Positions 12,782 to 25,483 of a DNA stretch of 32,381 nt are shown here, one piece after another (position 1 is the first letter of the stretch; each line of letters starts with the position of its first letter). The position numbers and the translations under genes are program-made. The DNA is from Bacillota bacterium (GTDB lineage: Bacteria; Bacillota_I; Bacilli_A; RF39; UBA660), in NCBI GenBank assembly GCA_003149915.1, contig QAMK01000002.1, positions 1-32,381 of the forward strand, in the 5' to 3' direction. The notes below the pieces were generated by a model that saw only the letters and a list, made by a program, of their open reading frames with translations, was not told the DNA's origin and did no database searches.

Positions 12782-13672
12782 TTAAAAATCAGAATGATTT
12801 TCAAATCCCAAATCGATTAAATATTTTTCTTTGTCACGCCAATTGTCGATTGTTTTGACGTATGTCTGTAAATATACTTTTTTAGAGAAATATTCCTCTA
12901 AATCCTTTCTTGCTTCGGAACCGATCTGTTTTAACATCGATCCGCGTTTACCGATGATGATCTTTTTCAAGTTATCTCGTTCGACGACAATGCATACTTG
13001 AATGGAAACTAAATCGTCTTCTTCCTCTAACGATTCTACATAGCAAGTGACAGTATGAGGAACTTCTTTCTCTGTTTTCTGTAAAATCTTTTCTCGAACA
13101 ATTTCTGCTACGTAAAATTTGGTACTGATATTAGTAATCGTATCATCTTCGTATAACTTTCCTTCATTCGATAGATAAGGCGTAATTGTCTTAATTAGTT
13201 CCTTGATATTCTTCTCTTTTAGAGCAGAAATCGGAACAACTTCTACAAAATCGTATGCTTGACTTGCCTTTTGAATGGCTAAGAAGATATCATCCTTTTT
13301 CATGCCATCGATTTTATTCAAAACTAAAATGACCTTGGCATTCGCTTCTTTCAAACGATTTAAAATAAACAAGTCCCCTTTGCCAATGCCCGTCTTAGCA
13401 TCTACCAAAAACAATACGACATCGACGTCTTGAATGGCATGAAACGCCGTCTGATTTAAAACGGTTCCCAAACGATTGAGTGGTTTGTGAATACCAGGTG
13501 TATCGACGAATACAATTTGCACGTCATCGTCGTTATAAACTCCTAAAATCGTATTGCGAGTCGTCTCTGCCTTATCGCTTGTAATTGCTAATTTTCGCTC
13601 TAACAACGTATTTAATAATGTACTTTTACCGACATTGGGACGGCCAACGATACTGACAACACCACTTCTCAT
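12782..13672 (-). CDS. era: GTPase Era
   Basis: Era binds the 3' end of 16S rRNA and guides 30S subunit maturation. The 296-residue protein carries the GTPase motifs G1 GRPNVGKST (about residues 10-18), G3 DTPGIHKP (about 58-65) and G4 NKID (about 119-122). A C-terminal KH domain includes VERDNLKKIIIGKRGSMLKQIG (the GxxG loop is GKRG). Length matches the family. It overlaps the cdd stop by 4 nt (ATGA), a typical operon junction. yqzL and recO follow downstream. Confidence 0.96.
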   Translation of the reverse strand: MRSGVVSIVGRPNVGKSTLLNTLLERKLAITSDKAETTRNTILGVYNDDDVQIVFVDTPGIHKPLNRLGTVLNQTAFHAIQDVDVVLFLVDAKTGIGKGDLFILNRLKEANAKVILVLNKIDGMKKDDIFLAIQKASQAYDFVEVVPISALKEKNIKELIKTITPYLSNEGKLYEDDTITNISTKFYVAEIVREKILQKTEKEVPHTVTCYVESLEEEDDLVSIQVCIVVERDNLKKIIIGKRGSMLKQIGSEARKDLEEYFSKKVYLQTYVKTIDNWRDKEKYLIDLGFENHSDF

Positions 13673-14061
13673 GCCAAATCATCTCCTGTAAACGGATAAG
13701 GGCAAAGATCTTTTACTTTGTACTCTTCTTTTGCACCAGACTTGGCATACAAAATAACTGGATTATCCATATCCATGAATTCCGTCATCACTTGCCTGCA
13801 CAAAAAACAAGACGAAGCAAGGGTATTTCCAGATGTCATGACGTGAATTTCAGCAAAGTCTCCCTTACGGTACCCTTCGCTAACGGCTTTTAAAATCGCT
13901 ACTCGTTCAGCACAAACAGCTGCTCCATAAGAAGCATTTTCAACATTGACACCAGTAAACACATGCCCATCTTTCATGACGACGATAGAAGAAACCGCAT
14001 AATGAGAATACGGCGAATAACTGTTTTCTAATAATTTTTCTAACTGTTCTCTATAGTCCAT
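13669..14061 (-). CDS. cdd: Cytidine deaminase
   Basis: The enzyme hydrolyses cytidine and deoxycytidine to uridine forms for pyrimidine salvage. The 130-residue size fits the small tetrameric class. Zinc ligands are visible: Cys in the N-terminal motif CAERVAI, with Glu as the proton shuttle, and the two Cys in SCFLCRQVMTEF. NVENASYGAAVCAER is the substrate-binding segment. It lies in its usual place between dgkA and era. Confidence 0.95.
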   Translation of the reverse strand: MDYREQLEKLLENSYSPYSHYAVSSIVVMKDGHVFTGVNVENASYGAAVCAERVAILKAVSEGYRKGDFAEIHVMTSGNTLASSCFLCRQVMTEFMDMDNPVILYAKSGAKEEYKVKDLCPYPFTGDDLA

Positions 14062-14071
14062 AAAAAACCTC

Positions 14072-14488
14072 CTAAAACATTTTTGGAACGAAAATCAAGA
14101 TTGCACCAATTAAAGCTGTAACAGATAAAACGAGCGTTGCAGCAGACGCCGTATCCTTTGCTACTTTCGCAAGTGGATGCTTCTCACTCGTAACCAAATC
14201 GATTGTTGCCTCAATTGCTGTATTGATCATTTCAGAAGCGGTAACAGCACCGATGATACCAATGACAAACAACCATTCCGGTACAGAAATATTATAGTAT
14301 AATCCCGCCAAAGTCGTCACCAAAGTAGCAACGATGATGATTGCCATGTTATGCTCACAAATCGCCGCATAAAAGAAGCCATCGATGGCATGACAAAAAC
14401 TCTTATAATATCGAACCAAAAAATTCCCTGTATCTTTATTTCTCACAATACTTCTTTTTTTATGAAATAACTTAGCGAACAATCCCAT
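14072..14488 (-). CDS. dgkA: Diacylglycerol kinase / undecaprenol kinase family
   Basis: The 138-residue integral membrane kinase has three predicted helices: around IIIVATLVTTLAGLYY, VPEWLFVIGIIGAVTASEM and ATLVLSVTALIGAILIF. The signature ASEMINTAIEATIDL and the following KVAKDTASAA carry the conserved Glu, Asn, Lys and Asp of the active site. In Gram-positives this family mainly phosphorylates undecaprenol, recycling the lipid carrier of the wall. I placed the start at the ATG at 14488, overlapping ybeY by 17 nt, because homologues start near here. A 16-codon longer frame exists but lies over ybeY. AGGAGG is 12 nt upstream. Confidence 0.9.
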   Translation of the reverse strand: MGLFAKLFHKKRSIVRNKDTGNFLVRYYKSFCHAIDGFFYAAICEHNMAIIIVATLVTTLAGLYYNISVPEWLFVIGIIGAVTASEMINTAIEATIDLVTSEKHPLAKVAKDTASAATLVLSVTALIGAILIFVPKMF

Positions 14489-14918
14489 ACTCCGATAATA
14501 CCTCCTCTTGTTTCGCAAACATAATCTTCTCGTCATGTGGATTCATATGATCGTATCCAAGCAAATGAAAAATGCCATGAACTGCCAAAAAACAAATCTC
14601 TCGTTTAAAGGAATGCCCATACTCTTCCGCTTGTTCATGTGCTCTCGGAATACAAATGTAAATATCTCCTAAAACACGTTCTTTAGTAGGCATCGGCATG
14701 CCGTCTTCCAAAGCAAAACTGATGACATCTGTCACACGATCGACGTTGCGATAAGTCTTATTTAATTCATGAATTTTCTCACTTCCAACAAATATGACGT
14801 TGCAAGAAGCATTTTTTACTTTTTCCTTTTTCAAAGCAAGTTTGATGACGTTTTTAATATCCGTCTTCAACACGCCTAAATCCTCTTCTGTTTCATTGAA
14901 TATACCAATTTGATTCAT
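14472..14918 (-). CDS. ybeY: Endoribonuclease YbeY (rRNA maturation factor)
   Basis: YbeY is a zinc-dependent RNase that matures the 3' end of 16S rRNA and helps 70S quality control. The 148-residue protein ends with the metal motif AVHGIFHLLGYDH (His-x3-His-x5-His, about residues 115-127). It also has DVISFALED and the LGDIYICIPRA strand typical of the family. It overlaps the VanZ-like gene by 4 nt upstream and dgkA downstream. phoH, its normal upstream neighbour, is missing. Confidence 0.95.
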   Translation of the reverse strand: MNQIGIFNETEEDLGVLKTDIKNVIKLALKKEKVKNASCNVIFVGSEKIHELNKTYRNVDRVTDVISFALEDGMPMPTKERVLGDIYICIPRAHEQAEEYGHSFKREICFLAVHGIFHLLGYDHMNPHDEKIMFAKQEEVLSEYGIVR

Positions 14919-15532
14919 ACTAACACCACCATGTAAATAACTCCTAATAATACGATGAGTAAAAGAACACTAACCGTATCTAAAAACCAGCGACTTTTCA
15001 AAAACTTAGGAAATGTACTCCATAGTTTCGTAATCGCATAGTAAAATAAAAATCCCAACATGCCACCGACGACATTCAAAATAATATCATCGATATCGAA
15101 GGCTCGTCCAATTGCAAGTTGCGTTACTTCGATGGTAAACGAAGCAAGCAACGAAAGAAGAAAAGCAATCCAACCTTTATCGTTCTTGGTATAATAACTA
15201 GCAAATAGACCAAATGGGAAAAAGAGCAACATATTGCCAAGCACGTTCTTCAAAAACAAACGACTACCAAACGAATACCTCGTCATCTCATGAAATGGCA
15301 TGAAGTTGTTGTTGTACATTCCCACACTGACATCTTGATAGGTTACCACTTGGAATAGGCAAAGGATGTAGATGATGAAAAAAAGAGACAAGATTTCTTT
15401 GTATAAAACGATGTTCTTTTTATTTTTTAAAAGATATGTTAACCGCAAGGATGTCAAGATTACCAAACAAATTGCAATCATAGGCCATGTAAATTCCATT
15501 ACTTCTAAAATTGTCGTTTGGAAACTATCCAT
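14915..15532 (-). CDS. VanZ-like family membrane protein
   Basis: The 205-residue protein has five or six membrane helices and the VanZ signatures: NMLLFFPFGLFASY (about residues 101-114), SFTIEVTQLAIGRAFDIDDIILNVVGGMLGF written here as the blocks SFTIEVTQ and RAFDIDDIILNVVGG, and a C-terminal helix. VanZ members can give low-level glycopeptide resistance, but most are uncharacterised envelope proteins. It lies within the yqfC-recO operon at the position usually held by phoH, with a 4-nt gap to yqfD and a 4-nt overlap with ybeY. It should be co-expressed with them. Confidence 0.85.
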   Translation of the reverse strand: MDSFQTTILEVMEFTWPMIAICLVILTSLRLTYLLKNKKNIVLYKEILSLFFIIYILCLFQVVTYQDVSVGMYNNNFMPFHEMTRYSFGSRLFLKNVLGNMLLFFPFGLFASYYTKNDKGWIAFLLSLLASFTIEVTQLAIGRAFDIDDIILNVVGGMLGFLFYYAITKLWSTFPKFLKSRWFLDTVSVLLLIVLLGVIYMVVLV

Positions 15533-15536
15533 ATCC

Positions 15537-16700
15537 TCACTCTCCTTGCTCTTGTTTCTGCAAATCTTCTTCTTTGATTTCTACATATTCCGTGATATCT
15601 TCTTCCGCCTTCAAAAACACATCTACTATTATTTTACTATCTTCTGTAGTGATTTTCAAATCTTTTTGACTGATTATCCGGCAAACCGCAGAATTGGTCA
15701 AAATCTTTTCTTCTGCCAAACGATGTGCCTGTTCTAATGCCTCCTCATAAGAATACGTCTTGTCGGTCACTTCGATTTCTTCTTCCTTTGTAATTGCAAC
15801 ACGAGCCGGAAACATCGCATTTTCTATCTTAAAAATATCTTCTCTGCTAGCCGTATCATAGGAAGAAAGTCCTAAGTGAATCGTGTGATTTAAAAACTGC
15901 AACGTAAGAACCGTCTGACTCTTACCGGTTTCCTTTTCTTCATAATAATGAAACGGTACTTCGATGTGTGCTTCATACCAAACTTCTCCTAACACGCGAC
16001 CTTTGGCAGCTAGTAAGTTCTTCACTTCTTCATCACGCATGATGGCACCACTCAAGATAACTTCCCCTTGTTTGACGTAGTCGTTAATTTTCTTCATGAC
16101 TTCGCCATTTTCTGCTTCAATTTTCGTAATCAAAGCATCTTTCTTTGCAACCAAATTGCGCGGTGCAACTTCACTCGTTTCATCGTTAATTTTTCTTCTT
16201 TCAACGTGAACGACATAATGAGTTCCTTGTGGACTGATTTCGATCCATTCGAGTTCCTTAGGATATGTCTCTAAAATTTTCTGTTCGATCTCTTCTTTTT
16301 TAGCATAAGAAACCTGTAAATGAAGCGGTGCGATTCCGTAACGTTCCAACTCGTTCTTTAATACCTCTCGAAACTCCGCATCATTTTCTAAAATCGTCAC
16401 TTGAAAACAAAAAGAACTTAAAATATAGAGAATCAAACAAAAAAGAAAAGCCCCAATTACCAAATAGTACTTCTTTAAAAGTAGATGACAAAGCGCTAAA
16501 AAGCCGGTGTATCCGACCAGTTCCACTTTGTAACTCGTCCGAATCTTTTTTAATTTCTGATAGTCTGTTTCACAAACCAAGATTTCAAATTCGCGTCGTC
16601 CCATTCGAAGCAGTTTGAAAGAGATTTGATTCGATAGTAGCTTACGTAAAAAATATTCTGGATTCCGACCAGAAATACGAACGCGGTAACGACTATTCAT
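15537..16700 (-). CDS. yqfD: Sporulation protein YqfD
   Basis: The 387-residue protein matches YqfD. It has a cytoplasmic N-terminal domain (about 1-85, beginning YRVRISGRNPEYFLRKLL), one membrane helix (about 86-108, YYLVIGAFLFCLILYILSS) and a large exported part. That part carries LERYGIAPLH, EWIEISPQGTHYVVHVERR, VAKKDALITKIEAENGEV and VKQGEVILSGAI. In Bacillus subtilis yqfD is a SigE-controlled mother-cell gene. It overlaps yqfC by 8 nt. The last twenty residues are highly acidic. Its exact role is not known. Confidence 0.9.
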   Translation of the reverse strand: MNSRYRVRISGRNPEYFLRKLLSNQISFKLLRMGRREFEILVCETDYQKLKKIRTSYKVELVGYTGFLALCHLLLKKYYLVIGAFLFCLILYILSSFCFQVTILENDAEFREVLKNELERYGIAPLHLQVSYAKKEEIEQKILETYPKELEWIEISPQGTHYVVHVERRKINDETSEVAPRNLVAKKDALITKIEAENGEVMKKINDYVKQGEVILSGAIMRDEEVKNLLAAKGRVLGEVWYEAHIEVPFHYYEEKETGKSQTVLTLQFLNHTIHLGLSSYDTASREDIFKIENAMFPARVAITKEEEIEVTDKTYSYEEALEQAHRLAEEKILTNSAVCRIISQKDLKITTEDSKIIVDVFLKAEEDITEYVEIKEEDLQKQEQGE

Positions 16701-16935
16701 AAACCTTCTTGACGATTTGTAAAACCGTTCCTGTTATTAAAATTTCATCATCCATCATTTGTTTTAAAACGAGATTCTCACCACGAATTTCAATTTGAAT
16801 GGAACCGATAGCAACCAAAATAATAGTAGGCTCTAAAATCAAAACTTTCGAAATATTAGTAATGTTTAAAAAATCTTCTGTCAGAAAAAGACGATACTGA
16901 TGATCGAATATACGCCTCTCTAGTTTCTGAAACAT
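16693..16935 (-). CDS. yqfC: Sporulation protein YqfC (YabP family)
   Basis: The 80-residue protein belongs to the YabP/YqfC family, small beta-rich proteins of the mother-cell sporulation programme. Typical traits are an N-terminal basic start and a central hydrophobic strand pair (TIILVAIGSIQIEIRGENL, about residues 37-55). A C-terminal strand (ILITGTVLQIVKKV) follows. It is the first gene of the yqfC-yqfD-VanZ-ybeY run. Its only ribosome-binding sequence (GGTGATT) is one arm of a 13-bp inverted repeat, so translation may be structurally controlled. Confidence 0.85.
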   Translation of the reverse strand: MFQKLERRIFDHQYRLFLTEDFLNITNISKVLILEPTIILVAIGSIQIEIRGENLVLKQMMDDEILITGTVLQIVKKVYE

Positions 16936-16937
16936 AT

Positions 16938-16974
16938 AATCACCCGATATAGTATATGAAGATATCAGGTGATT
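16938..16974 (-). promoter_or_regulatory. 13-bp inverted repeat covering the yqfC ribosome binding site
   Basis: On the minus strand AATCACCTGATAT pairs with ATATCGGGTGATT (one G.U pair) around an 11-nt loop. The 3' arm contains GGTG, the only Shine-Dalgarno-like sequence for yqfC, 5 nt before its ATG. No T-tract follows, so it is not a terminator. It could be an RNA hairpin hiding the start or a DNA operator. Confidence 0.6.
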
Positions 16975-17005
16975 TTAGTAGCAATTCTCAAATTAGACAA
17001 AGAAA

Positions 17006-17030
17006 AACGACCAAATTTAATTTAGTCGTT
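17006..17030 (-). terminator. Terminator built into the yqeY stop codon
   Basis: A 12-bp stem (with one G.U pair) has the TAA of yqeY at its tip and TTTTTC after it on the minus strand. Confidence 0.75.
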
Positions 17031-17457
17031 CCTTAATCAAAGCAGAGACATGACTCATATCTGCCTTTCCTTTCACAAGTGGTGTCACTTCTTTCATGAC
17101 TTTGCCCATATCCTTAGCAGAAGTTGGAGCAACACTTGCAAATACTTGATCGATGATTTTTTCAATTTCCTCTTCGCTCAATTGTTCTGGCAAATATGCC
17201 TTTAAAATATCGATTTCTTTGGCCGTTTCATTTGCCAAATCTTCTCTACCACCTTTTGTAAACTCAGCAATAGATTCCTTTCTTTGCTTGATTTCTCTAC
17301 TGATAACATCGATGACAACATCGTCAGTAAGTTCTTTTCCTTTATTAATATTTTCTAATTGTAAAGAACCTTTCAACATTCTTAAAACACTCAATTTATC
17401 TTTATCTTTTGCTTTCATGGCAGCGACGATATCTTGATAAATTCGATCTTTTAACAT
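17017..17457 (-). CDS. yqeY: GatB/YqeY domain protein
   Basis: The 146-residue protein is YqeY, related to the C-terminal tRNA-binding domain of amidotransferase subunit GatB. Visible blocks are DIVAAMKAKDKDKLSVLRML, VISREIKQRKESIAEFTKGGREDLA and ILKAYLPEQLSEEEI (about residue 85). A C-terminal GKVMKEVTPLVKGKADMSHVSALIKERLN segment is split here as GKVMKEVTPLVKGKADMS and ALIKERL. It follows rpsU as in Bacillus. Its role is unclear but may involve tRNA. AGGAGG precedes the ATG, and terminators bound it on both sides. Confidence 0.93.
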   Translation of the reverse strand: MLKDRIYQDIVAAMKAKDKDKLSVLRMLKGSLQLENINKGKELTDDVVIDVISREIKQRKESIAEFTKGGREDLANETAKEIDILKAYLPEQLSEEEIEKIIDQVFASVAPTSAKDMGKVMKEVTPLVKGKADMSHVSALIKERLN

Positions 17458-17497
17458 TCTGATTCCTCCTCTAGTAATAGTATATCATAGAAAAAGA

Positions 17498-17524
17498 AAA
17501 GAGACTAACAAAACTAGTCTCTTT
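17498..17524 (-). terminator. Terminator overlapping the rpsU stop codon
   Basis: AAAGAGACTA pairs with TAGTCTCTTT around a 7-nt loop, followed by TTCTTTTTC on the minus strand. The rpsU stop TAG lies at the loop side of the 5' arm. Confidence 0.8.
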
Positions 17525-17714
17525 CGCGACGAGAACGATTTCTTTTACGAGTATTGCGAATACCCTCTTTTTTTGCTTCTCTTCTTTGAACTCCAGGTTT
17601 CGAATAAGCTTCTCTCTTCTTGACTTCAGAAGGGACACCATCTCTGGCTTGTTTTTGTTTGAATTTTCTTAATGCCAAATCCAAATTACCATTCTTTACA
17701 ACAACTGTACTCAC
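17514..17714 (-). CDS. rpsU: Small ribosomal subunit protein bS21
   Basis: The 66-residue highly basic protein of the 30S platform has the bS21 pattern: STVVVKNGNLDLALRKFKQK, then GVPSEVKKREAYSKPGVQRR and an Arg/Lys-rich tail. I chose the GTG at 17714 because GGGAGGG lies 6 nt before it and the family starts with the xTVVV strand. The ATG eight codons further upstream lies before this site. A strong promoter precedes it. yqeY follows, as is common. Confidence 0.93.
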   Translation of the reverse strand: MSTVVVKNGNLDLALRKFKQKQARDGVPSEVKKREAYSKPGVQRREAKKEGIRNTRKRNRSRRERD

Positions 17715-17747
17715 TTTTATCCCTCCCTTCGTCTTCAACTAAAAAAG

Positions 17748-17776
17748 ATTATAGCAAAACTTTCGCGTCATTTCAA
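17748..17776 (-). promoter_or_regulatory. Sigma-A promoter of rpsU
   Basis: TTGAAA (17776-17771), a 17-nt spacer and TATAAT (17753-17748) with an extended TGC in front of it. Confidence 0.8.
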
Positions 17777-17803
17777 CATTTTTTTTGAAATTCATTGGTT
17801 TTT

Positions 17804-18274
17804 CTATCTCTTCTGGTGAAAAAACGGAAATGGATGCTGATAGATAACCAGTCCTTTCTGGGTAGCCCGTTCCACTCCGTCGTAAGAGCCAACCAAATCT
17901 TCCGGATCCAAAGGTCCAAGCGCACGATTTAATAATAAAACGTTAGACCGATCAAGCATTTCTGTATAACGCATCATGTGATCACAATGAAGATCCTCAG
18001 AAAAATCAGGATCTTCTTTTGGAATCGATGTTGCAGAATCAAATTCTTCCTCTAAGATATTCTGTAACATCCAGCTGATATCTAAAAATGTAGTCTCCTC
18101 ACTACAAAGTTCATCGCTAATTGCGTCGTAATCAGATGCTGTAAGTAAACTAAAAAACGCAATCTCATCAGAAGAAAGCTCTCCACCCAAAGCTTCCTTC
18201 AAGAGAATGCGTTTGCAAAACGTTCTTCCTTTACTTGTCATTTTCCCATCTACGTAACATTTCTCTAAACTCAT
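17804..18274 (-). CDS. Acidic protein of unknown function next to the bacteriocin locus
   Basis: I do not recognise this 156-residue soluble acidic protein. It has no membrane segment. Its middle (about residues 45-95) is rich in Asp/Glu, with an ISDELCSEETTFLDISWML stretch. Its end contains GPLDPEDLVGSYDGVERA and an aromatic tail (HPFPFFHQ). I chose the ATG at 18274, with AAGGAG ten bases before it, instead of the start 17 codons earlier, which overlaps the promoter. It has its own promoter and is therefore probably not part of the peptide operon. A role in immunity cannot be excluded. Confidence 0.65.
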   Translation of the reverse strand: MSLEKCYVDGKMTSKGRTFCKRILLKEALGGELSSDEIAFFSLLTASDYDAISDELCSEETTFLDISWMLQNILEEEFDSATSIPKEDPDFSEDLHCDHMMRYTEMLDRSNVLLLNRALGPLDPEDLVGSYDGVERATQKGLVIYQHPFPFFHQKR

Positions 18275-18295
18275 ATTCCCCACTCTCCTTACTTC

Positions 18296-18325
18296 ATTAT
18301 ATACACGAGATTTTATTTTTTGCAA
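18296..18325 (-). promoter_or_regulatory. Sigma-A promoter of the 156-aa gene
   Basis: TTGCAA (18325-18320), an 18-nt spacer and TATAAT (18301-18296) on the minus strand, about 22 nt before the chosen start. Confidence 0.7.
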
Positions 18326-18341
18326 TAGAACAATTCAAAAA

Positions 18342-18485
18342 TTAACTAGAAGTAGAAATTTGACAATACAATTGTGATAAATTGGTTCCGACTGCTTGTC
18401 CAAAAGAAAATACGATTGGTGAAAGAATTAAAATTACCAAAACCATAAATGTAATGGCTAACCCTTTTACAAGTCTGTCGGACAT
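18342..18485 (-). CDS. 47-aa one-helix membrane peptide, putative immunity protein of the bacteriocin locus
   Basis: The ORF starts MSDRLVKGLAITFMVL and has one strongly hydrophobic segment (about residues 9-28). A short polar tail follows with a single Cys (C41) seven residues from the end. There is no double-glycine leader, so it is unlikely to be a substrate of the exporter in the usual way. Its ATG overlaps the last six codons of the second peptide, and it has no clear ribosome binding site, so translation is probably coupled. Tiny one-helix proteins encoded directly after bacteriocin genes are often immunity proteins; that role here is inference. The hydrophobic segment could also be a signal peptide. 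Confidence 0.65.
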   Translation of the reverse strand: MSDRLVKGLAITFMVLVILILSPIVFSFGQAVGTNLSQLYCQISTSS

Positions 18486-18640
18486 AACGAATCGCTAGTA
18501 GCTCGTCTAATACCAGAACCGACACTCCTGCCAGCATCTAATAATACTTTTAAGATGTCGACAAAAGCATTTAGTAAAGATCCCGTAATACTAGCCCCTC
18601 CTTTTATTTCTTTTAATTCTTGACTCGTTAAACGTTTCAT
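18467..18640 (-). CDS. Double-glycine-leader peptide B, putative class IIb bacteriocin component
   Basis: The 57-residue precursor has a 15-residue leader, MKRLTSQELKEIKGG, that fits the consensus exactly: Leu at -12, Glu-Leu at -8/-7, Ile at -4 and Gly-Gly at -2/-1. Cleavage by the C39 domain of the exporter would release a 42-residue peptide beginning ASITGSLLNAF. The mature part is amphipathic, then carries a GRSVG (GxxxG) motif (residues 37-41), an Arg pair and a lone Cys (C53). The start overlaps the stop of peptide A by 4 nt, so both are made in step, as expected for two-peptide bacteriocins. A signalling-peptide role is the main alternative. Confidence 0.8.
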   Translation of the reverse strand: MKRLTSQELKEIKGGASITGSLLNAFVDILKVLLDAGRSVGSGIRRATSDSLCPTDL

Positions 18641-18783
18641 GAATCTTTGTCACAGCTAAGTGGTCGTACAAAGCCATCGAGAACCCCTGCTAAGAAGATG
18701 ACGATGGCACCGATAACGAGACCAGCTGTAACGGACAAACCTCCTTTCATCGCTTTTAATTCATAATCAGATAATTGTCTCAT
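18637..18783 (-). CDS. Double-glycine-leader peptide A, putative class IIb bacteriocin component
   Basis: The 48-residue precursor has the leader MRQLSDYELKAMKGG with Leu at -12, Glu-Leu at -8/-7, Met at -4 and Gly-Gly before the cut. The 33-residue mature peptide begins LSVTAGLVIGAIVIF and is strongly hydrophobic. It carries two GxxxG motifs (GLVIG at residues 21-25 and GVLDG at 33-37), the helix-helix contact of class IIb bacteriocins, and a lone Cys (C44) five residues from the end. AAGGAG lies 4 nt before the ATG, inside the upstream accessory gene, whose stop overlaps this start by 4 nt. Peptide B follows with the same junction. Confidence 0.82.
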   Translation of the reverse strand: MRQLSDYELKAMKGGLSVTAGLVIGAIVIFLAGVLDGFVRPLSCDKDS

Positions 18784-19166
18784 AATTCTCCTTTCCATTT
18801 TTGAATCAAAATCTCAAGTAATGTATAAGTTCCAGAATGAATGGAAACTTTCGTACTGGTATCTTTAGGACATATCGTATTTGCTTCTAAGACACCTGAA
18901 AGCACCGTATCATAAGAAAGTTTCACCCTTTCACATTTTTGGTTTGCTAGAAAAACATCTCCCTCCACTACGAAGGACGCATCTTCCAAAGGAACATAGA
19001 AAACAAAAGTATCAACCTGCCAATATCCAGAGTACTCTTGATGAATCGTGATGGGAACGAAAAAACAAAGTATCATTCCAAATAGACATACTAAGTAAAT
19101 CAGACAAAACCAAGCATTCCGAAATGAAACCGAAGCATGAATTCTATGATAGACGTCCATCGGCAT
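18780..19166 (-). CDS. Short membrane-anchored accessory protein of the peptide exporter
   Basis: The 128-residue protein has a short cytoplasmic N-terminus, one membrane helix (about residues 18-41, AWFCLIYLVCLFGMILCFF) and an external beta-rich part with YWQVDTFVFYVPLEDA. Its place between the exporter and the peptides is that of HlyD-like membrane fusion proteins, and the N-terminal anchor fits. It is only about a quarter of their usual length and lacks the coiled coil, so it would be a stripped-down version. It starts 23 nt inside the PCAT 3' end and ends in a 4-nt overlap with peptide A. Homology to HlyD is inferred from context and not shown by motifs. Confidence 0.65.
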   Translation of the reverse strand: MPMDVYHRIHASVSFRNAWFCLIYLVCLFGMILCFFVPITIHQEYSGYWQVDTFVFYVPLEDASFVVEGDVFLANQKCERVKLSYDTVLSGVLEANTICPKDTSTKVSIHSGTYTLLEILIQKWKGEL

Positions 19167-21171
19167 GAAAATGAATCACCTTTGTAAATAATTTGGGATT
19201 GAATTTTTGATGAGAAACGACAATGACAATACGATTTTTCAAATATTGAAACAAATTTTGTAACACTGTTTGACGTAAATAAGCATCCAAAGTTTGAAAT
19301 ACTTCGTCATATAAGTAAACACTGGCTGGACAAATCAAACTGCGCGCCAAAATGAGTCTCGTTCGTTCACCGGAAGATAGTTGAAAGCCGTCTTCTAAAA
19401 GAACTGTTTCATAACCGTTAGAGAGTGAAATATCATCCGCATGAGTTAAGTTCATGACACGTTCAAATTCTTCCTGTGACGGCGTATACGACAAGACCAC
19501 ATTTTGGTATACAGAAGTGGGAAACAATTTTTCCTCGCTAGAGACATATAAAATTTGTTCCTCCCTCTTTTCTTTGCCGTCTAGCAAAATCGTTCCAGAA
19601 GTCGCATCTAAAAAACCTGCTAAGACTTTTAAAAAAGTACTCTTACCAGAACCAGATGGACCGCTAATTAAAACCCGTTCCCCTGGCGAAAAAAAGAAGG
19701 ATACGGAAGAGAATATACTCCTCTTTCCATAATGGTAACTCAAGTTACGTACTTCTAACGACACCGCTTTACTTTTCTGAAACGACTGAGACGACACTTC
19801 TTCAATTTGCCATAGTTCGTTCATTCTCGTTTTCGAAGTCACAAAATCCGGATATCGTAAAATCGTATCGACGATATTTTGAACTGGTGCCATCAAATAG
19901 AAAAAAATCGTATCAAAGGTAATGAAATCGGTAAGAGATAATTTTCCTTGAATCACCAAATACGCACCATATAAAGATAAAATAGCAAGGGATAGTTCAT
20001 ACAAAAGAGACCGCACCAGACGAAACAAAACATCTTTCTTCATCACGACATGAGAGCCATCTAAGACTTCTCCATACGAAAGACTAAGGGTATCTTTTGC
20101 ATAAGAAGTCACATGAAAATGTGACAAAGACTCAAGAGAACCCAAAAAGGAAGAAATCATTTGATTACAACGACTCCACTTTTCCTTATAGGATAAAAAG
20201 TCATGTCGTGAGAGAATCTGAAATATCACGGTCATAAAAGTGAGAATCACCAAAAATAACAATGTAATCATAAATAGACCAATCGAAAACTTGGCAAGTA
20301 AGAAAAGTGAAATCACAATCAAAAGAACATCCAAACTTGCTAAAATAACGCGGATAATAAAATCAGATAGACCTGACATTTCATTTACTCTCGTTAAAAT
20401 CTCTCCTGTACTTTTATCTTTATAGTACAAATAAGGAAGCGATAGAAAGCGACCAAACAACGACGTGATGAGTGGATAATCGAGTTGTTGCTTTAAAATG
20501 ATGAGAATCGTATCCCGAAAAAACGACGAAAGATTTTTACAAAGTACGATAAAAAGAAGAAAACAAGCGAAAAAGAACAAATTATCGAAACTTTGACTTT
20601 CCAAAACAAACATCGATAGAAACGTGAATCGATACATCATGAGAGTATGAAAAATAAGATAGAGGAAAGAAAATGCAAACAGATGAGCAAAAAAATTCCA
20701 ATGCTGAATTACGGTTCGAAAAATCAATTGTTCCATCTTAGAAATTTTGCGAAAATGTGGCAAATCCCGTTCTACTTGAAACAAAAGATACTGATTCTGA
20801 GAAATTGCTTGGTATTCTTGGTAACTCAAAATCCGTTTGCCCAAATCGGGATCCAACATCATTACTCGCCTAGAAGTTTGCTCGACATTCGTTAAAACGA
20901 CAAAATGATCTGCCTGTCTAGAGTTCTTAACGTGTGCAATACATGGGAAATCTTGAGAGCGAAGAGCCATTACATCACCACGAACACCATAACAGGAAAA
21001 TCCTAATTTTCTTGCCCCTTCTAATAGATGATACGCATCACATCCATCTTTCTTAGTCTGCGTTAAAACACGTAGAAATTCCTTCGAAATATCTCCTCCA
21101 TAGTAACGAATGATCATCAAAAGACAACTAACACCGCAATCGGATGCACTGCTCTGTCGCTCTAATGTCAT
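19144..21171 (-). CDS. Peptidase C39-containing ABC transporter (bacteriocin processing and export)
   Basis: The 675-residue PCAT cleaves double-glycine leaders and exports the mature peptide. Domain order: C39 peptidase (about 1-130; Gln6, Cys12 in ASDCG, His89 in ADHF, Asp107 in LDPD), a six-helix membrane domain (about 155-440) and an ATPase domain (about 470-675). The ATPase shows Walker A GPSGSGKST (504-512), signature LSSGE (598-602), Walker B VYLYDE (618-623) and the switch His654. The Q-loop Gln is not evident: the strand reads ILYVSSEEKLF where YVPQ is usual. The ATG at 21171 has a poor ribosome binding site. A strong one (GAGGAGG) lies 34 nt upstream, in frame with two ATT codons, so translation may begin earlier. 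It heads the peptide operon. Confidence 0.9.
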   Translation of the reverse strand: MTLERQSSASDCGVSCLLMIIRYYGGDISKEFLRVLTQTKKDGCDAYHLLEGARKLGFSCYGVRGDVMALRSQDFPCIAHVKNSRQADHFVVLTNVEQTSRRVMMLDPDLGKRILSYQEYQAISQNQYLLFQVERDLPHFRKISKMEQLIFRTVIQHWNFFAHLFAFSFLYLIFHTLMMYRFTFLSMFVLESQSFDNLFFFACFLLFIVLCKNLSSFFRDTILIILKQQLDYPLITSLFGRFLSLPYLYYKDKSTGEILTRVNEMSGLSDFIIRVILASLDVLLIVISLFLLAKFSIGLFMITLLFLVILTFMTVIFQILSRHDFLSYKEKWSRCNQMISSFLGSLESLSHFHVTSYAKDTLSLSYGEVLDGSHVVMKKDVLFRLVRSLLYELSLAILSLYGAYLVIQGKLSLTDFITFDTIFFYLMAPVQNIVDTILRYPDFVTSKTRMNELWQIEEVSSQSFQKSKAVSLEVRNLSYHYGKRSIFSSVSFFFSPGERVLISGPSGSGKSTFLKVLAGFLDATSGTILLDGKEKREEQILYVSSEEKLFPTSVYQNVVLSYTPSQEEFERVMNLTHADDISLSNGYETVLLEDGFQLSSGERTRLILARSLICPASVYLYDEVFQTLDAYLRQTVLQNLFQYLKNRIVIVVSHQKFNPKLFTKVIHFHADGRLS

Positions 21172-21204
21172 CCCTAACCGTCGCTTTTTAGATAAAATAA
21201 TATC

Positions 21205-21212
21205 GCCTCCTC
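21205..21212 (-). promoter_or_regulatory. Strong ribosome binding site displaced from the first ATG of the PCAT gene
   Basis: GAGGAGGC on the minus strand lies 4 and 7 nt before two in-frame ATT codons (21201-21199 and 21198-21196), but 34 nt before the first ATG (21171). The frame between is open, adding about ten residues with the basic stretch SKKRR. Confidence 0.55.
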
Positions 21213-21247
21213 ACTATATACATTGTCTGTTTCATGAAAAAATGGCA

Positions 21248-21270
21248 CAAAAAAAGTAGATTTCTCTACT
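21248..21270 (-). terminator. Terminator after the 204-aa gene
   Basis: AGTAGA and TCTACT form the stem, followed by seven T on the minus strand. The stop codon TAG overlaps the start of the 5' arm. Confidence 0.7.
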
Positions 21271-21883
21271 AATTTTTTACACTCCACACAGAATCATATT
21301 CAAAGTCAGGACAAAACGATGAAGCAGACGTCGTTACTGCACGAACAATATAACCATCGCGATCTAAAAATAAAAGACTCTTATTGCCATCGTAATCAAA
21401 AGAAAAACAGCCATCTACCAAAGTACTCGTAAGATTTGGTTCATCAAAGTCACACTCGCCAGATGTAAATTCAAATTCTTTTTCATTCAAATAGCCACCA
21501 TTTTCTGAATAATTTCTAGAAACTGCAACAAACGTCGATTGAAGAGCGGGTAAGGAAATCGTTTCATCATCGAAATGTACGAACAAATCTTGCTCTGTCA
21601 TATTCCAGAAAAAGACGACGTAATTTCGTTCCTCACCTTGTGTTTCAAACGTATAAATATAGTACTGGACACCAGATATCACACCTTCTCGGTATACGTT
21701 TTGGCGAATTCTAGATAAAATCGGATGATTTTCAGGATTGAATGGATTTCCACGAAAATGGCTTGCAATAAAAGGAATATTTGCCAGTACAACGATAAGA
21801 ATGATTCCTACTAGGATAAGAATTCGTTTGATCCAAGTTCGTTTCTTTTTTTCTTTTTCATCTAACATAGAAAAGTTTTTCAT
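21269..21883 (-). CDS. Membrane-anchored extracellular protein of unknown function
   Basis: The 204-residue protein has a basic N-terminus (DEKEKKKRTWIKR), one membrane helix (about residues 20-40, ILILVGIILIVVLANIPFIA) and an external domain. That domain is rich in aromatic and acidic residues, with three Cys (in GECDF, DGCF and SFCPDF) that could form a disulfide. I know no family for it. It lies between the lysis pair and the PCAT operon but has its own terminator. GGTGG lies 7-8 nt before the ATG. A role in the neighbouring peptide system is possible but not supported by motifs. Confidence 0.65.
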   Translation of the reverse strand: MKNFSMLDEKEKKKRTWIKRILILVGIILIVVLANIPFIASHFRGNPFNPENHPILSRIRQNVYREGVISGVQYYIYTFETQGEERNYVVFFWNMTEQDLFVHFDDETISLPALQSTFVAVSRNYSENGGYLNEKEFEFTSGECDFDEPNLTSTLVDGCFSFDYDGNKSLLFLDRDGYIVRAVTTSASSFCPDFEYDSVWSVKN

Positions 21884-21933
21884 ACACTTACCACCACTTT
21901 ACGATACATTCATTATATAACAAAATATGACAA

Positions 21934-21960
21934 ATAAAAAGGAAAACGACGTTGTTTTCC
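21934..21960 (-). terminator. Terminator of the holin-endolysin unit
   Basis: GGAAAAC and GTTTTCC pair around a 6-nt loop with TTTTTATTTG after them on the minus strand. It begins 4 nt after the endolysin stop codon. Confidence 0.75.
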
Positions 21961-21964
21961 CAAT

Positions 21965-22729
21965 CTACTCAAGGTATTGATTTGCACACATACCAACGGT
22001 ACCATTATACTCTACTTTATCCATCGAGTACCCTTTAGCAGTCGTATAGTTCTCTTGTAAAACTGTAACTGTTGCATTATGTGGCATAACGAAAAGTGTT
22101 CCAGAATTATCCAGTTTCATTAAATATAAACCATTCGTGACCCGAACTCGTTTGGTCTTTGCTACAGGAGTCACTTCTTCTTTTGGCATACTTTGAAACA
22201 CCAAAGAAGCAGAATCAACTACTTTCGTAAAATCATCGTTAAGATACATCACCTGTTCTGGTGGATACGATGTTCCTGTCATTACCCAAGCTGCTGCCGT
22301 ATTTTGAGTCCAATTATCGCAATGACCTCGTCCGCATGTGATATGTAAATGGTTAGCAGCTGCACCATCCGTTCCTTCATAAGCGATAATTTCGCCTGCT
22401 TTGATAATATCGCCAACTTTAAACTTGGCCGTAATAGAACCGTCGTTCCAATGCGTTAACGTTAGCCAAACCGTATCTGTAAATGTTGGTGTCTCTACCG
22501 CCTCTACTGTCTCTAACCAGATTGTATTGGTTACGTAATTGCCAACTCCTCGAATCGCAACCACTTTCATATCAACCGGAGCAAAATAAGCACTTTGCCT
22601 ACCATCGACACCTGCACAATCGATTGGATAATCAGCCGGCGTTCCATGAGAATGATGATAGTGACTAGTAGCACCGTTATAGTCTTGTGTCACCCGCAAC
22701 GTTTCCATTCCGAAATAAAACTTTTGCAT
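21965..22729 (-). CDS. M23-type peptidoglycan endopeptidase with C-terminal SH3-like domain (endolysin-like)
   Basis: The 254-residue protein resembles phage-type endolysins. The first 150 residues look like an M23 (LytM-like) zinc peptidase. A His/Asp cluster (YHHSHGTPADYPIDCAG, about residues 24-40), the loop around FAPVDMKVVAIRGVGNYV and the final HLHITCG motif (about 145) would hold the metal. The last 65 residues (KRVRVTNGLYLMKL to the end) look like a bacterial SH3 wall-binding domain. There is no signal peptide, so release would depend on the holin upstream. I chose the ATG at 22729, since AAGGAGG lies 8 nt before it and overlaps the end of the holin gene. Confidence 0.82.
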   Translation of the reverse strand: MQKFYFGMETLRVTQDYNGATSHYHHSHGTPADYPIDCAGVDGRQSAYFAPVDMKVVAIRGVGNYVTNTIWLETVEAVETPTFTDTVWLTLTHWNDGSITAKFKVGDIIKAGEIIAYEGTDGAAANHLHITCGRGHCDNWTQNTAAAWVMTGTSYPPEQVMYLNDDFTKVVDSASLVFQSMPKEEVTPVAKTKRVRVTNGLYLMKLDNSGTLFVMPHNATVTVLQENYTTAKGYSMDKVEYNGTVGMCANQYLE

Positions 22730-22730
22730 T

Positions 22731-23066
22731 CTATTCACCTCCTTCTTGCTTAGAAGAATCGATTTGTAACAAATCTTTTAATTTTTTCAAATCTTTTCCA
22801 GCATAGTAAATAATACCCGAAGTGAACAGTAGTTCCATTGCATCCGTCAAATTCACATCGATGCCTTGAATATTTGCTACTAAAATATTAGGATTCAAAA
22901 GAGCACAAATATACATTAGCAATCCACCTAAAACGATGCAGAATGTTTTGCCAATTCCAGTAGCAAGTGTCTTCTTACAGAAAGTACATTGGATCGACGC
23001 AATGCTAACACCCAACACAATATTGGACATCATAACTAGAAAAAGTCCAATTACAATCGGAAACAT
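22731..23066 (-). CDS. Phage-type holin (toxin secretion / phage lysis holin family)
   Basis: The 111-residue protein begins at the ATG at 23066 behind a perfect GGAGGTGAAAAT. It has three hydrophobic segments (about residues 2-22, 34-55 and 75-92), Cys-rich between the first two (QCTFCKK), and a charged C-terminal tail (KDLKKLKDLL). Size, topology and the endolysin gene directly downstream fit a holin of the TcdE/BhlA-like group. Holins make membrane holes that let a leaderless endolysin reach the wall. No structural phage genes are nearby, so the pair is either a phage remnant or a host-adopted lysis/secretion module. Confidence 0.75.
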   Translation of the reverse strand: MFPIVIGLFLVMMSNIVLGVSIASIQCTFCKKTLATGIGKTFCIVLGGLLMYICALLNPNILVANIQGIDVNLTDAMELLFTSGIIYYAGKDLKKLKDLLQIDSSKQEGGE

Positions 23067-23097
23067 ATTTTCACCTCCATAATAATATATGAAGCAC

Positions 23098-23132
23098 AAA
23101 AAAAGTGGTATAGGACATACACCACTTTTTTT
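23098..23132 (-). terminator. Terminator at the end of the DUF4097 gene
   Basis: AAAAAAAGTGGTGTA pairs with TATACCACTTTTTTT on the minus strand. The TAA stop of the DUF4097 gene overlaps the first bases of the 5' arm. Confidence 0.8.
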
Positions 23133-23931
23133 ACATCGTTTCGATTGCAATGGAACCAATTCCACCATCTACTTGAACATTCGTAGGACCAGAGCCATAT
23201 GTTCCAGAAGAGCATCCCTTTTGATTTAATGAAACAGAACCAATTCCAGTGGATAAGATAAACGTATACTCTTCTTCTGAATCGTTAAGATGTAACGTCA
23301 TTGTTCCAATTCCTGAATCCAAATCATTGAATCCTGTCAATGTTCCCGTAAATTCGAATTCTCCGACACCGCCATCATAAGAAAAATTATGGAAAGATGC
23401 ATCCTCTATGGTAACCTTACCGGCTCCACCATCCATCTCTACTTCATCGGTAACGATAACGGAACGAAGCGAAACATTTCCCGCTCCTAAACTGAGATCC
23501 AATTTAGAGAATTTCAAAGAAGAAAGAGAAACCTTACCTGCTCCAGCATCGATGCTAACGAAGTCCAAATACTCAGTAGGAACTTGTACGATAACTTGAT
23601 CGTTTATTGTATCAAACCAATCGAAGTCATCTTCTTCTACATATAACGTACCGTTTTCTATATATGCACGAACATTAGAGTCCGTTGATGATACCATCAA
23701 GCGACTTCCTAAGACAAGTTCCAGATTAGCCGTCGATACATCGATTTCTAAGTTGGATACAGCATAGTCTGTTTCTAAAACAACTGTCAACTCCTTGGAT
23801 ACATCATGATACAATCCAAAAATATGACCCACCATCGATAAACCAATCAAAATACTAGAAAAGATGAGAACGATTAGAAAGATTGCAAATCCAATTGCAA
23901 TAGCCTTAATTACTCGTTGTGCACTTGTCAT
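23131..23931 (-). CDS. DUF4097-family membrane-anchored beta-repeat protein
   Basis: The 266-residue protein has one N-terminal membrane helix (about residues 12-38) and an exported beta-solenoid-like domain. The domain shows a repeated D/S-x-G-x-G-x-V/M pattern: DAGAGKVSL, LGAGNVSL, DGGAGKVTI, DGGVGEFEF, DSGIGTMTL, STGIGSVSL and DGGIGSIAI. The spacing is about 20 residues, as expected of DUF4097/YvlB-type adhesin-like folds. I chose the ATG at 23931, which overlaps the LiaF-like stop by 4 nt. Such genes often sit with LiaF- or PspC-type envelope-stress genes, but the precise role is unknown. Confidence 0.82.
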   Translation of the reverse strand: MTSAQRVIKAIAIGFAIFLIVLIFSSILIGLSMVGHIFGLYHDVSKELTVVLETDYAVSNLEIDVSTANLELVLGSRLMVSSTDSNVRAYIENGTLYVEEDDFDWFDTINDQVIVQVPTEYLDFVSIDAGAGKVSLSSLKFSKLDLSLGAGNVSLRSVIVTDEVEMDGGAGKVTIEDASFHNFSYDGGVGEFEFTGTLTGFNDLDSGIGTMTLHLNDSEEEYTFILSTGIGSVSLNQKGCSSGTYGSGPTNVQVDGGIGSIAIETM

Positions 23932-24611
23932 TTGATTTCCACTCCACCAAAAATACAAGTGGCATCGATATAAATTGTCTTGGCATGATCAGAAGAATCG
24001 TTCTTTGCCTTATTGGAAACTCCTCCAAAAATAGGTGTAGAACGAACCTTGACAGCAACATCGTCTGGTACGTAAATATCGATTCCACCAAAAACAGCAC
24101 TGGCTGAAATGACAACATCTTTCTTAATCGTAGCACCTCTTAAATCGCAAGTAACACCGCCAAAAACAGCTTCTAAAGATGCCCCTTTAAACTCTTCCTT
24201 CGTATAATCTGCTGTAACACTTCCAAATGTTGCACAGTACTCTTCTAAATTCTTTTCTTTCTTAGCAGCATCACGAATCTCCTTCATTCTTTTAGAATAA
24301 ATCGTATCTTTGAATATCAAAGAAAGTCCCCATACAACCAAAATGAACGGTATAATTAATTTCAGTACCATACCAAAGTCTAAGATGTTTTGACAAGAAA
24401 GAAGCAAAACAATTCCGATTGCTAGACCAATTAAATTTCCAGTCCGGTCTTCTTTATGAAACATTCCAATAAAACACGGAACGATGATAAAAAGAGTCCA
24501 CCAACCGTTAAAAAAGACATCAATATGAGCAAATCCCAAAGCATTCACTCCAAAAATAAGTCCCAGTACGATTAATACCAATCCCCATAAAACATGATCA
24601 ATTCTTTTCAT
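23928..24611 (-). CDS. LiaF-like membrane protein
   Basis: The 227-residue protein has four membrane helices in the first 125 residues, the first beginning HVLWGLVLIVLGLIFG. A cytoplasmic C-terminal beta domain has the repeated signature (VFGGVTCDL, VFGGIDIYVP, IFGGVSNK, CIFGGVEI). This fits the LiaF C-terminal (DUF2154-type) fold. In Bacillus LiaF restrains the LiaS/LiaR two-component system that senses lipid II-targeting antimicrobials. No liaS or liaR is in this window. I chose the ATG at 24611 because GGAGGTAAGT precedes it; an ATG four codons earlier lies before that site. DUF4097 follows in the same operon. Confidence 0.83.
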   Translation of the reverse strand: MKRIDHVLWGLVLIVLGLIFGVNALGFAHIDVFFNGWWTLFIIVPCFIGMFHKEDRTGNLIGLAIGIVLLLSCQNILDFGMVLKLIIPFILVVWGLSLIFKDTIYSKRMKEIRDAAKKEKNLEEYCATFGSVTADYTKEEFKGASLEAVFGGVTCDLRGATIKKDVVISASAVFGGIDIYVPDDVAVKVRSTPIFGGVSNKAKNDSSDHAKTIYIDATCIFGGVEIK

Positions 24612-24639
24612 ACTTACCTCCATATCCTTATTCTATTAT

Positions 24640-25406: not shown

Positions 25407-25483
25407 TGGTGTTCCGGAAGAGATTCGAACTCTTGACACCCGCCTTAGAAGGGCGATGCTCTATCCAGCTGAGCTACCAGAAC
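25407..25483 (-). tRNA. tRNA-Arg (anticodon UCU)
   Basis: The minus strand folds as a full cloverleaf: acceptor GTTCTGG/CCGGAAC, D-arm GCTC/GAGC, anticodon stem TCGCC/GGCGG with loop CTTCTAA, and T-arm with GTTCGAATC. The anticodon TCT reads AGA/AGG. CCA is encoded (25409-25407). Confidence 0.95.

Follow-up and report, generated by a model that had tools for sequence, protein, structure and literature searches.

A near-universal operon of RF39 bacteria encoding a C39 exporter, two double-glycine peptides and a possible mimic of one of them

The operon and its products

The minus strand of a 32,381-nt stretch of contig QAMK01000002.1 (the window, to the whole of which all coordinates refer) carries, at 18342-21171, genes for a C39-ABC exporter, a 128-aa accessory protein, two precursor peptides with double-glycine (GG) leaders, A and B, and C, a one-helix open reading frame (ORF) of 47 aa. 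The exporter and peptides A and B are retained in nearly every sampled genome of an order of uncultured gut bacteria with small genomes, C in about half of the loci, and we favour for this operon, with moderate confidence, its interpretation as a membrane-active, weapon-like two-peptide system that would be vertically inherited and in which C might serve as a B-like protector. The features of the operon are as follows:

19144-21171, minus strand: C39 peptidase-containing ABC exporter, 675 aa; Pfam C39, ABC_membrane and ABC_tran over cut-off
20779-21165, minus strand: C39 protease domain of the exporter, residues 3-131 (Pfam)
18780-19166, minus strand: accessory, 128 aa, one transmembrane (TM) helix and a small beta domain; same position as the accessory of relatives
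18637-18783, minus strand: precursor of peptide A; leader 18739-18783, mature part 18640-18738 (33 aa); profile match in relatives
18467-18640, minus strand: precursor of peptide B; leader 18596-18640, mature part 18470-18595 (42 aa)
18342-18485, minus strand: peptide C, 47 aa, leaderless, one-helix membrane peptide that resembles the C-terminal half of B

The overlapping arrangement described in a preceding sequence-only reading, running from the exporter through the accessory into two small peptides, with C overlapping B, is indeed present: the exporter and the accessory overlap by 23 nt, the accessory and A, as well as A and B, share an ATGA, and B and C overlap by 19 nt. The same reading correctly recognised A as a small GG peptide, and the one adjustment to be made concerns its beginning, comparison with relatives pointing to the inner ATG (18783) rather than to the start of the 53-aa ORF. 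The precursor of A consists of the leader MRQLSDYELKAMKGG and a 33-aa core, that of B of the leader MKRLTSQELKEIKGG and a 42-aa core; the leader pattern (L at -12, E at -8 and L at -7, M or I at -4, then GG) and the GxxxG motifs previously claimed for both are borne out, the latter as GLVIG and GVLDG in A and GRSVG in B.

Comparison of relatives reveals conserved C-terminal motifs in the two peptides, G-x3-G-x2-R-P-x2-C in A and G-R-S-x-G-x3-R-R...C in B. The GG is kept in 129 of 131 A and 129 of 132 B sequences, and G-x3-G-x3-[RI]R is present in 129/132 B. A cysteine lies within the last 10 residues of all 132 B and of 130 of the 131 A, the exception being the A of locus L034, in which it is located one place further in; it is the single cysteine of the core in 121 A and 123 B. 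The structure model of B is one long helix spanning residues 17-48 (predicted local distance difference test score, pLDDT, 73.8). Homology of A to B was considered and rejected, the match between them being confined to the leader and the first core residues. No convincing relative of either peptide was found among solved structures; the carnobacteriocin B2 match, at an E-value of 1.5, runs through the leader part.

The exporter scores 88.9 bits against Pfam C39 (cut-off 22), 50.1 against ABC_membrane and 83.1 against ABC_tran. In an alignment of 10 exporters, H89 and D107 are invariant and C12 is nearly so; we take these three to be the catalytic residues. Its four closest relatives in the metagenome set are 99, 87, 73 and 72% identical, followed by the next at 36%. 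Against TIGR01193, the model of bacteriocin ABC transporters, it reaches 253.8 bits, below the cut-off of 523.85. The accessory is modelled with a pLDDT of 78.8; that it is a small version of the HlyD-type membrane fusion proteins, which combine a TM helix with an MFP beta-barrel fold, is a conceivable but not an established reading.

Could A, B or both be pheromones sensed at the surface? Some GG-leader peptides act as inducers, and a few family members weakly match the ComC, EntF and BlpC models. The cores, however, are hydrophobic, membrane-helix-like and paired, and no sensor gene was noticed in the cassettes of 14 loci (one of them without a detected exporter), which were inspected without a dedicated sensor search, so that we regard peptide signalling as very improbable.

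Conservation and descent in RF39

With the exporter alignment alone as the query, relatives were found at 60 loci (25-36% identity in the best segment), labelled mostly as metagenome-assembled genomes (MAGs) of uncultured Bacilli, Tenericutes or Erysipelotrichaceae. A profile search of the frames at these loci, some of which had supplied seeds of the A and B profiles, detected A in 56 and B in 54. Among the misses, L006 and L019 stop before the start of B, L053 is cut, and in L058 and L059 the query matches in the ATPase domain only. Locus L050 encodes an exporter, an accessory and an A (7463-7594) that lacks the RPxxC end, with no B found; perhaps it is a decayed cassette.

We then turned to 193 genomes from the order of one relative; this order is RF39, where GTDB places Candidatus Coprosoma (PMC8035907), a genome that leads to the same pool, and the genome of the window probably belongs to it as well. 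B was detected in 183 of the 193, with genome sizes of 0.6-1.9 Mb, as a single profile match in 166 and as two or three in the remainder. A C39 domain is present in 185 genomes: together with B in 183 (including G175, where the C39 match is weak) and without it in two, namely G034, in which the match is weak, and G121, in which the position of A and B falls at the end of a 5-kb contig; eight genomes have neither and none has B only. The sequence-only reading had staked its claim beforehand on the conservation of A and B with the exporter in relatives, and these 183 genomes are in keeping with it. In a subset of 60 order genomes, A is present in 56; it is missing from G034, G036, G037 (with a weak B) and G040. 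The gene rpsU, which lies downstream of the operon in the window, is present in 54 of 60 order genomes, including 53 of the 57 B-positive ones among them, versus 3 of the 10 B-less genomes (in G071, 44 nt from the contig start). Because the B-less genomes are mostly devoid of rpsU, most of the absences of B are probably assembly gaps.

In a class-wide sample of 296 genomes, 40 match B, of which 35 are members of the order already counted; the other five (G203, G215, G290, G355 and G360) match at positions 1-30 or 1-36 only, mainly the leader, and no full-length B was found in this sample outside the order pool. A plasmid origin was considered and dropped, B yielding a single spurious match (E 0.7) in 72,556 plasmid records. 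In the metagenome set, the window B has six relatives of nearly full length, which share 89-98% identity with it and differ mostly in the leader, and 525 protein clusters match the B profile; among the 120 of these listed, the few names given are 'hypothetical protein' and one name is empty.

The gene order is conserved as well. For the 90 best B matches of the 183 order loci, A immediately precedes B in 89 and the exporter lies ahead of them in 88, the misses (L075, L113) being contig ends. Short frames are nothing unusual (88 with 30 aa or more overlap positions 14000-24000 of the window), and it could be argued that A and B are spurious frames beside a generic exporter. Their adjacency in 89/90 loci and the 525 clusters refute this argument, to which we assign virtually no weight: conservation of A and B in sequence and in place rules out chance ORFs.

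In pooled estimates of the ratio of replacement to silent change (pN/pS), the values for mature A (0.31, 31 disjoint pairs) and mature B (0.29, 30) are close to that of the exporter (0.29, 31), with 0.37 and 0.38 for the two leaders, 0.51 for the accessory (25), 0.48 for C (13), 0.20 for ribosomal protein S21 (17) and 0.25 for YqeY (10). Judging by these pooled values, mature A and B are under purifying, not diversifying, selection. Across the 54 loci with all four proteins, the protein distances correlate with those of YqeY (Spearman 0.50 for the exporter, 0.43 for A and 0.42 for B; 0 of 2000 permutations each reaching the observed value), and the operon thus shows signs of vertical descent.

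Several rare variants of the peptides deserve mention. In the metagenome set, P0128 is an in-frame fusion of the first part of B with C, in P0127 B runs into another frame over C, and P0126 is missing four residues around AGRS; either errors or genuine changes between B and C could account for them. Locus L062 has a third GG-leader ORF between B and C (179 nt past the B start, about 39 aa from the Met, core CLWSKKIIHAV...), and the 17 genomes with two or three B-profile matches may hold extra peptides of this kind. In two mycoplasma-like genomes (see below), a GG-leader ORF of 94-130 aa (L151:6039-6431 and L155:5827-6111, both minus strand) lies beside rplU/rpmA-like genes identified by eye, and its core begins slightly like mature B (SGALLNG... 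vs TGSLLNA...); similar leader-part matches occur in 139-aa frames of G215, G290 and G360. Perhaps GG peptides form a broader core theme among reduced Bacilli.

Downstream of the operon, on the same strand, the window contains a ybeY-dgkA-cdd-era block, preceded by several other genes:

17804-18277, minus strand: ORF between C and rpsU, 157 aa; no Pfam or NCBIfam match over cut-off
17514-17738, minus strand: rpsU (ribosomal protein S21); TIGR00030 52.6 bits, cut-off 28.95
17017-17457, minus strand: yqeY-like gene (name presumed); weak NCBIfam match to the GatE model; recurrent neighbour
15537-16700, minus strand: yqfD-like gene; TIGR02876 199.8 bits, below the cut-off of 256.7
14915-15532, minus strand: VanZ-like membrane protein, below cut-offs
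14472-14918, minus strand: ybeY; TIGR00043 161.3 bits, cut-off 45
14072-14536, minus strand: dgkA-like gene (name presumed); no NCBIfam match at 1e-5
13669-14061, minus strand: cdd (cytidine deaminase); TIGR01354 132.2 bits, cut-off 113.65
12782-13672, minus strand: era; NF000908 354.1 bits, cut-off 237

Among the 50 order loci with at least 3 kb downstream, rpsU is found within 3 kb in 32 and yqeY in 23; in eight of the loci L001-L150, an FtsZ-type motif takes this place, no more than 2.5 kb downstream (FtsA-FtsZ by eye). Of 20 RF39 stretches reaching 15-16 kb downstream of B, five (L183, L189, L190, L192 and L193) contain relatives of YqfD, YbeY, Era and RecO in that order, together with some other members, and the other 15 are without such a block, having rpsU or yqeY only, a single distant match or nothing; dgkA-like relatives between ybeY and cdd/era are present in 4 of the 20.

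This neighbourhood extends to an order that we call mycoplasma-like, from its code-4 frames and small size. The exporter of the window aligns along its length with NF045998, the Mbov_0121 family, at 234.3 bits, below the cut-off of 500. The window accessory scores 11.7 bits (E 0.21) against NF045999, the MAG1140 family, below the cut-off of 35; in its own family, 8 of 19 members match this model at E<=0.1, the best at 4.9e-7. MAG1140 is matched at E<=0.01 in 14 of 59 mycoplasma-like genomes, five of them over cut-off. At the 7 best of these 14 loci, the exporter (C39 and ABC_tran over the Pfam cut-offs) and the accessory are in all seven cases followed by ybeY (7/7 over cut-off), then by a cdd- and/or dgkA-like gene and by era (the three tested of the seven all exceed the TIGR00436 cut-off; the rest were assigned by eye), and neither A nor B was seen between the exporter/accessory and ybeY-era. 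The simplest reading would be that the exporter and accessory of RF39 and of the mycoplasmas share descent, in which case A and B would be cargo of RF39.

Other observations in the window concern the surroundings of the operon. The slot between C and rpsU (17804-18277) is occupied by other ORFs, of 82-133 aa, in L004, L018 and L020. Upstream of the exporter, 23131-24623 encodes a DUF4097 (toastrack) protein over cut-off together with a LiaF C-terminal match below cut-off, a pair that may point to a module for envelope stress close to the operon. At 21965-23168, a protein that weakly matches Peptidase_M23 (E 5e-4, under the cut-off) has as its neighbour a small protein containing hydrophobic stretches (22731-23168), and the two may be a lysis-like pair. 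Promoter and terminator scans gave results at chance level only, and the single Rfam match at the gathering threshold is a tRNA (tRNA-Arg, 25410-25483).

Peptide C and the possible function of the operon

Peptide C was called by position and hydrophobicity alone at the 132 loci that are unique by B (the window included). A call was possible at all but 3 of them: of the 129 judged loci, 62 have a membrane ORF after B and 67 have none. Among the 62 C, 51 carry the strict motif G-x3-G[TSIN]-x2-R, against a single one of the 773 remaining membrane ORFs at these loci; the C of the window is a looser case without the R. A comparison of the C and B profiles yields a probability of 91.7 and a score of 31.2 over 32 columns, versus 12.4 for the best of 200 column shuffles and 11.1 for the reversal, the C set having been picked with the motif in view, which favours this result. 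The B profile alone gives a weak second match in the C ORF of seven loci (L075, L082, L089, L106, L122, L130 and L143; E 3.6e-4 to 0.06, 217-251 nt past the B start). A homology of C to A was rejected, the A and C profiles giving no match. C is commoner where an accessory-sized gap separates the exporter from A (57/92 vs 3/35 without the gap, uncorrected for kinship). By the positive-inside rule, a lysine-rich N-terminus stays inside and the C-terminal end is outside, and the lysine-rich N-terminus of C suggests this orientation. The proposal of the sequence-only reading that C gives immunity appears plausible, in view of its resemblance to B; this similarity of C to its neighbour is the new element here, and C offers an idea of immunity by mimicry that can be put directly to the test.

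The mechanism that we infer, from cleavage and pairing through the disulfide to permeabilisation and immunity, is as follows. The products of a vertically inherited RF39 core operon, the C39-ABC exporter and the membrane-anchored accessory, would cut the GG leaders off A and B and export both peptides. Outside the cell, the helices of A and B would enter membranes and pair through their GxxxG faces, possibly locked by a disulfide between the C-terminal cysteines, to form a membrane-permeabilising complex. This complex could work like a class IIb bacteriocin because its parts are those expected of two membrane-active peptides that pair through GxxxG and leave the cell by a C39-ABC machine. C would stay in the membrane of the producer with its B-like G-x3-G-x3-R end outside and pair with A in place of B, protecting the producer. 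The most likely use of the complex would be to kill neighbouring cells or make them leak, in keeping with the reported lack of fatty-acid synthesis in these bacteria.

There are several points against this weapon-like reading. Most bacteriocins are neither near-universal nor undiversified, and this operon is both. Its order-wide retention in tiny genomes, combined with the absence of C from half of the loci, speaks against an ordinary bacteriocin, and if A and B are self-toxic, the C-less half would need other protection. Cognate specificity between C and B found no support (1165 of 5000 permutations reach the observed value), a disulfide between A and B is chemically uncertain in the anaerobic gut, the similarity of A and B does not extend past the first core residues, and silent sites are near saturation in many of the pN/pS pairs.

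Under an alternative reading, A and B are not toxins but core membrane peptides whose place of action, once secreted, is the envelope of the producing cell itself (its stability or division, or uptake through it, for instance), and C is an optional third subunit. Several results speak for such a role: almost all of these genomes of 0.6-1.9 Mb keep the operon, mostly in one copy; the mature peptides are under purifying selection at the rate of the exporter; the distances of A, B and exporter track YqeY; the exporter and accessory lie ahead of ybeY in mycoplasma-like genomes too; and half of the loci lack C. It is at odds with the GG leaders and C39 export, which are the usual make-up of class IIb bacteriocins, and with the GxxxG helices, also usual in that class according to PMC8538875; furthermore, a one-helix small ORF right after B fits an immunity gene, as with the 42-aa CbnZ (same source). 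We consider this envelope role less likely, although it is the main rival, and continue to prefer the membrane-active, weapon-like system. A broader formulation that spans both, namely that the genome-reduced, auxotrophic RF39 keep as a core function a Cys-linked A-B helix pair and a C39 machine with an ancestry shared with mycoplasmas, either to make neighbours lose lipids and metabolites or for their own envelope, with C as a leaderless, membrane-anchored and protective mimic of B, can be put forward only tentatively in all its parts.

RF39 is reported to be uncultivated, to be present in a large share of human gut metagenomes and to have lost many pathways, including fatty-acid synthesis (PMC6784871), yet the operon is kept in nearly every sampled genome. 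Its presence throughout the order with the same two secreted peptides points to a basic function rather than to a weapon of occasional use. If A and B do permeabilise membranes, they would constitute an order-wide weapon or feeding tool that shapes gut communities and offer a handle on the auxotroph lifestyle. If they do not, the class IIb signature would be shared by a secreted complex with a housekeeping role, and bacteriocins called automatically in such lineages would be false.

Relation to known systems

The operon has several of the features expected of class IIb: two co-encoded GG precursors, a C39-ABC exporter in the same operon and GxxxG in both cores. The sequence-only reading held that the locus belongs to this class, and as far as a C39 exporter with two conserved GG-leader GxxxG peptides is concerned, this stands; the idea of an ordinary, idiosyncratic bacteriocin locus finds no support, because the operon is near-universal in the order, mostly in one copy, in genomes of 0.6-1.9 Mb and with signs of vertical descent. 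The claim that the peptides resemble no known bacteriocin goes too far. Against TIGR03949 (lactobin A/cerein 7B; cut-off 21.5), the B of the window scores 14.7 bits and A gives no match, and both are below the curated models; among the relatives of A, however, L037 (23.3 bits) and L047 (21.5) reach the cut-off, and 28 of 30 members of the A family match at E<=0.1. No description of the operon was recognised in the literature searched, which includes the IIBacFinder atlas as a part preview, and the A and B peptides may already be among the predicted candidates of that atlas.

With class IIb systems, such as lactococcin G and the TIGR03949 family, the RF39 operon shares adjacent GG-leader GxxxG peptides, a C39-ABC exporter and a small membrane peptide alongside; it differs in being an order-wide core, in the cysteine near the C-terminus of both A and B and in the resemblance of C to B. 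CibABC of Streptococcus pneumoniae, a two-peptide bacteriocin with an immunity protein, is reported to be universal in the species (PMC13059744) and is likened here by description, not by sequence; its universality is within one species, whereas that of the RF39 operon spans an order. CbnZ, the immunity peptide of carnobacteriocin XY, with 42 aa and one TM the smallest for class IIb at the time of the review (PMC8538875), is, again by description, a small one-TM peptide like C, to which C adds its likeness to B. Finally, the Mbov_0121 exporter and MAG1140 accessory of mycoplasmas resemble the RF39 pair in the exporter aligned over the full length, in the matches of accessory relatives and in the ybeY/era neighbourhood, and differ in that no A or B lies alongside (7 loci) and that the proteins of the window remain below the family cut-offs.

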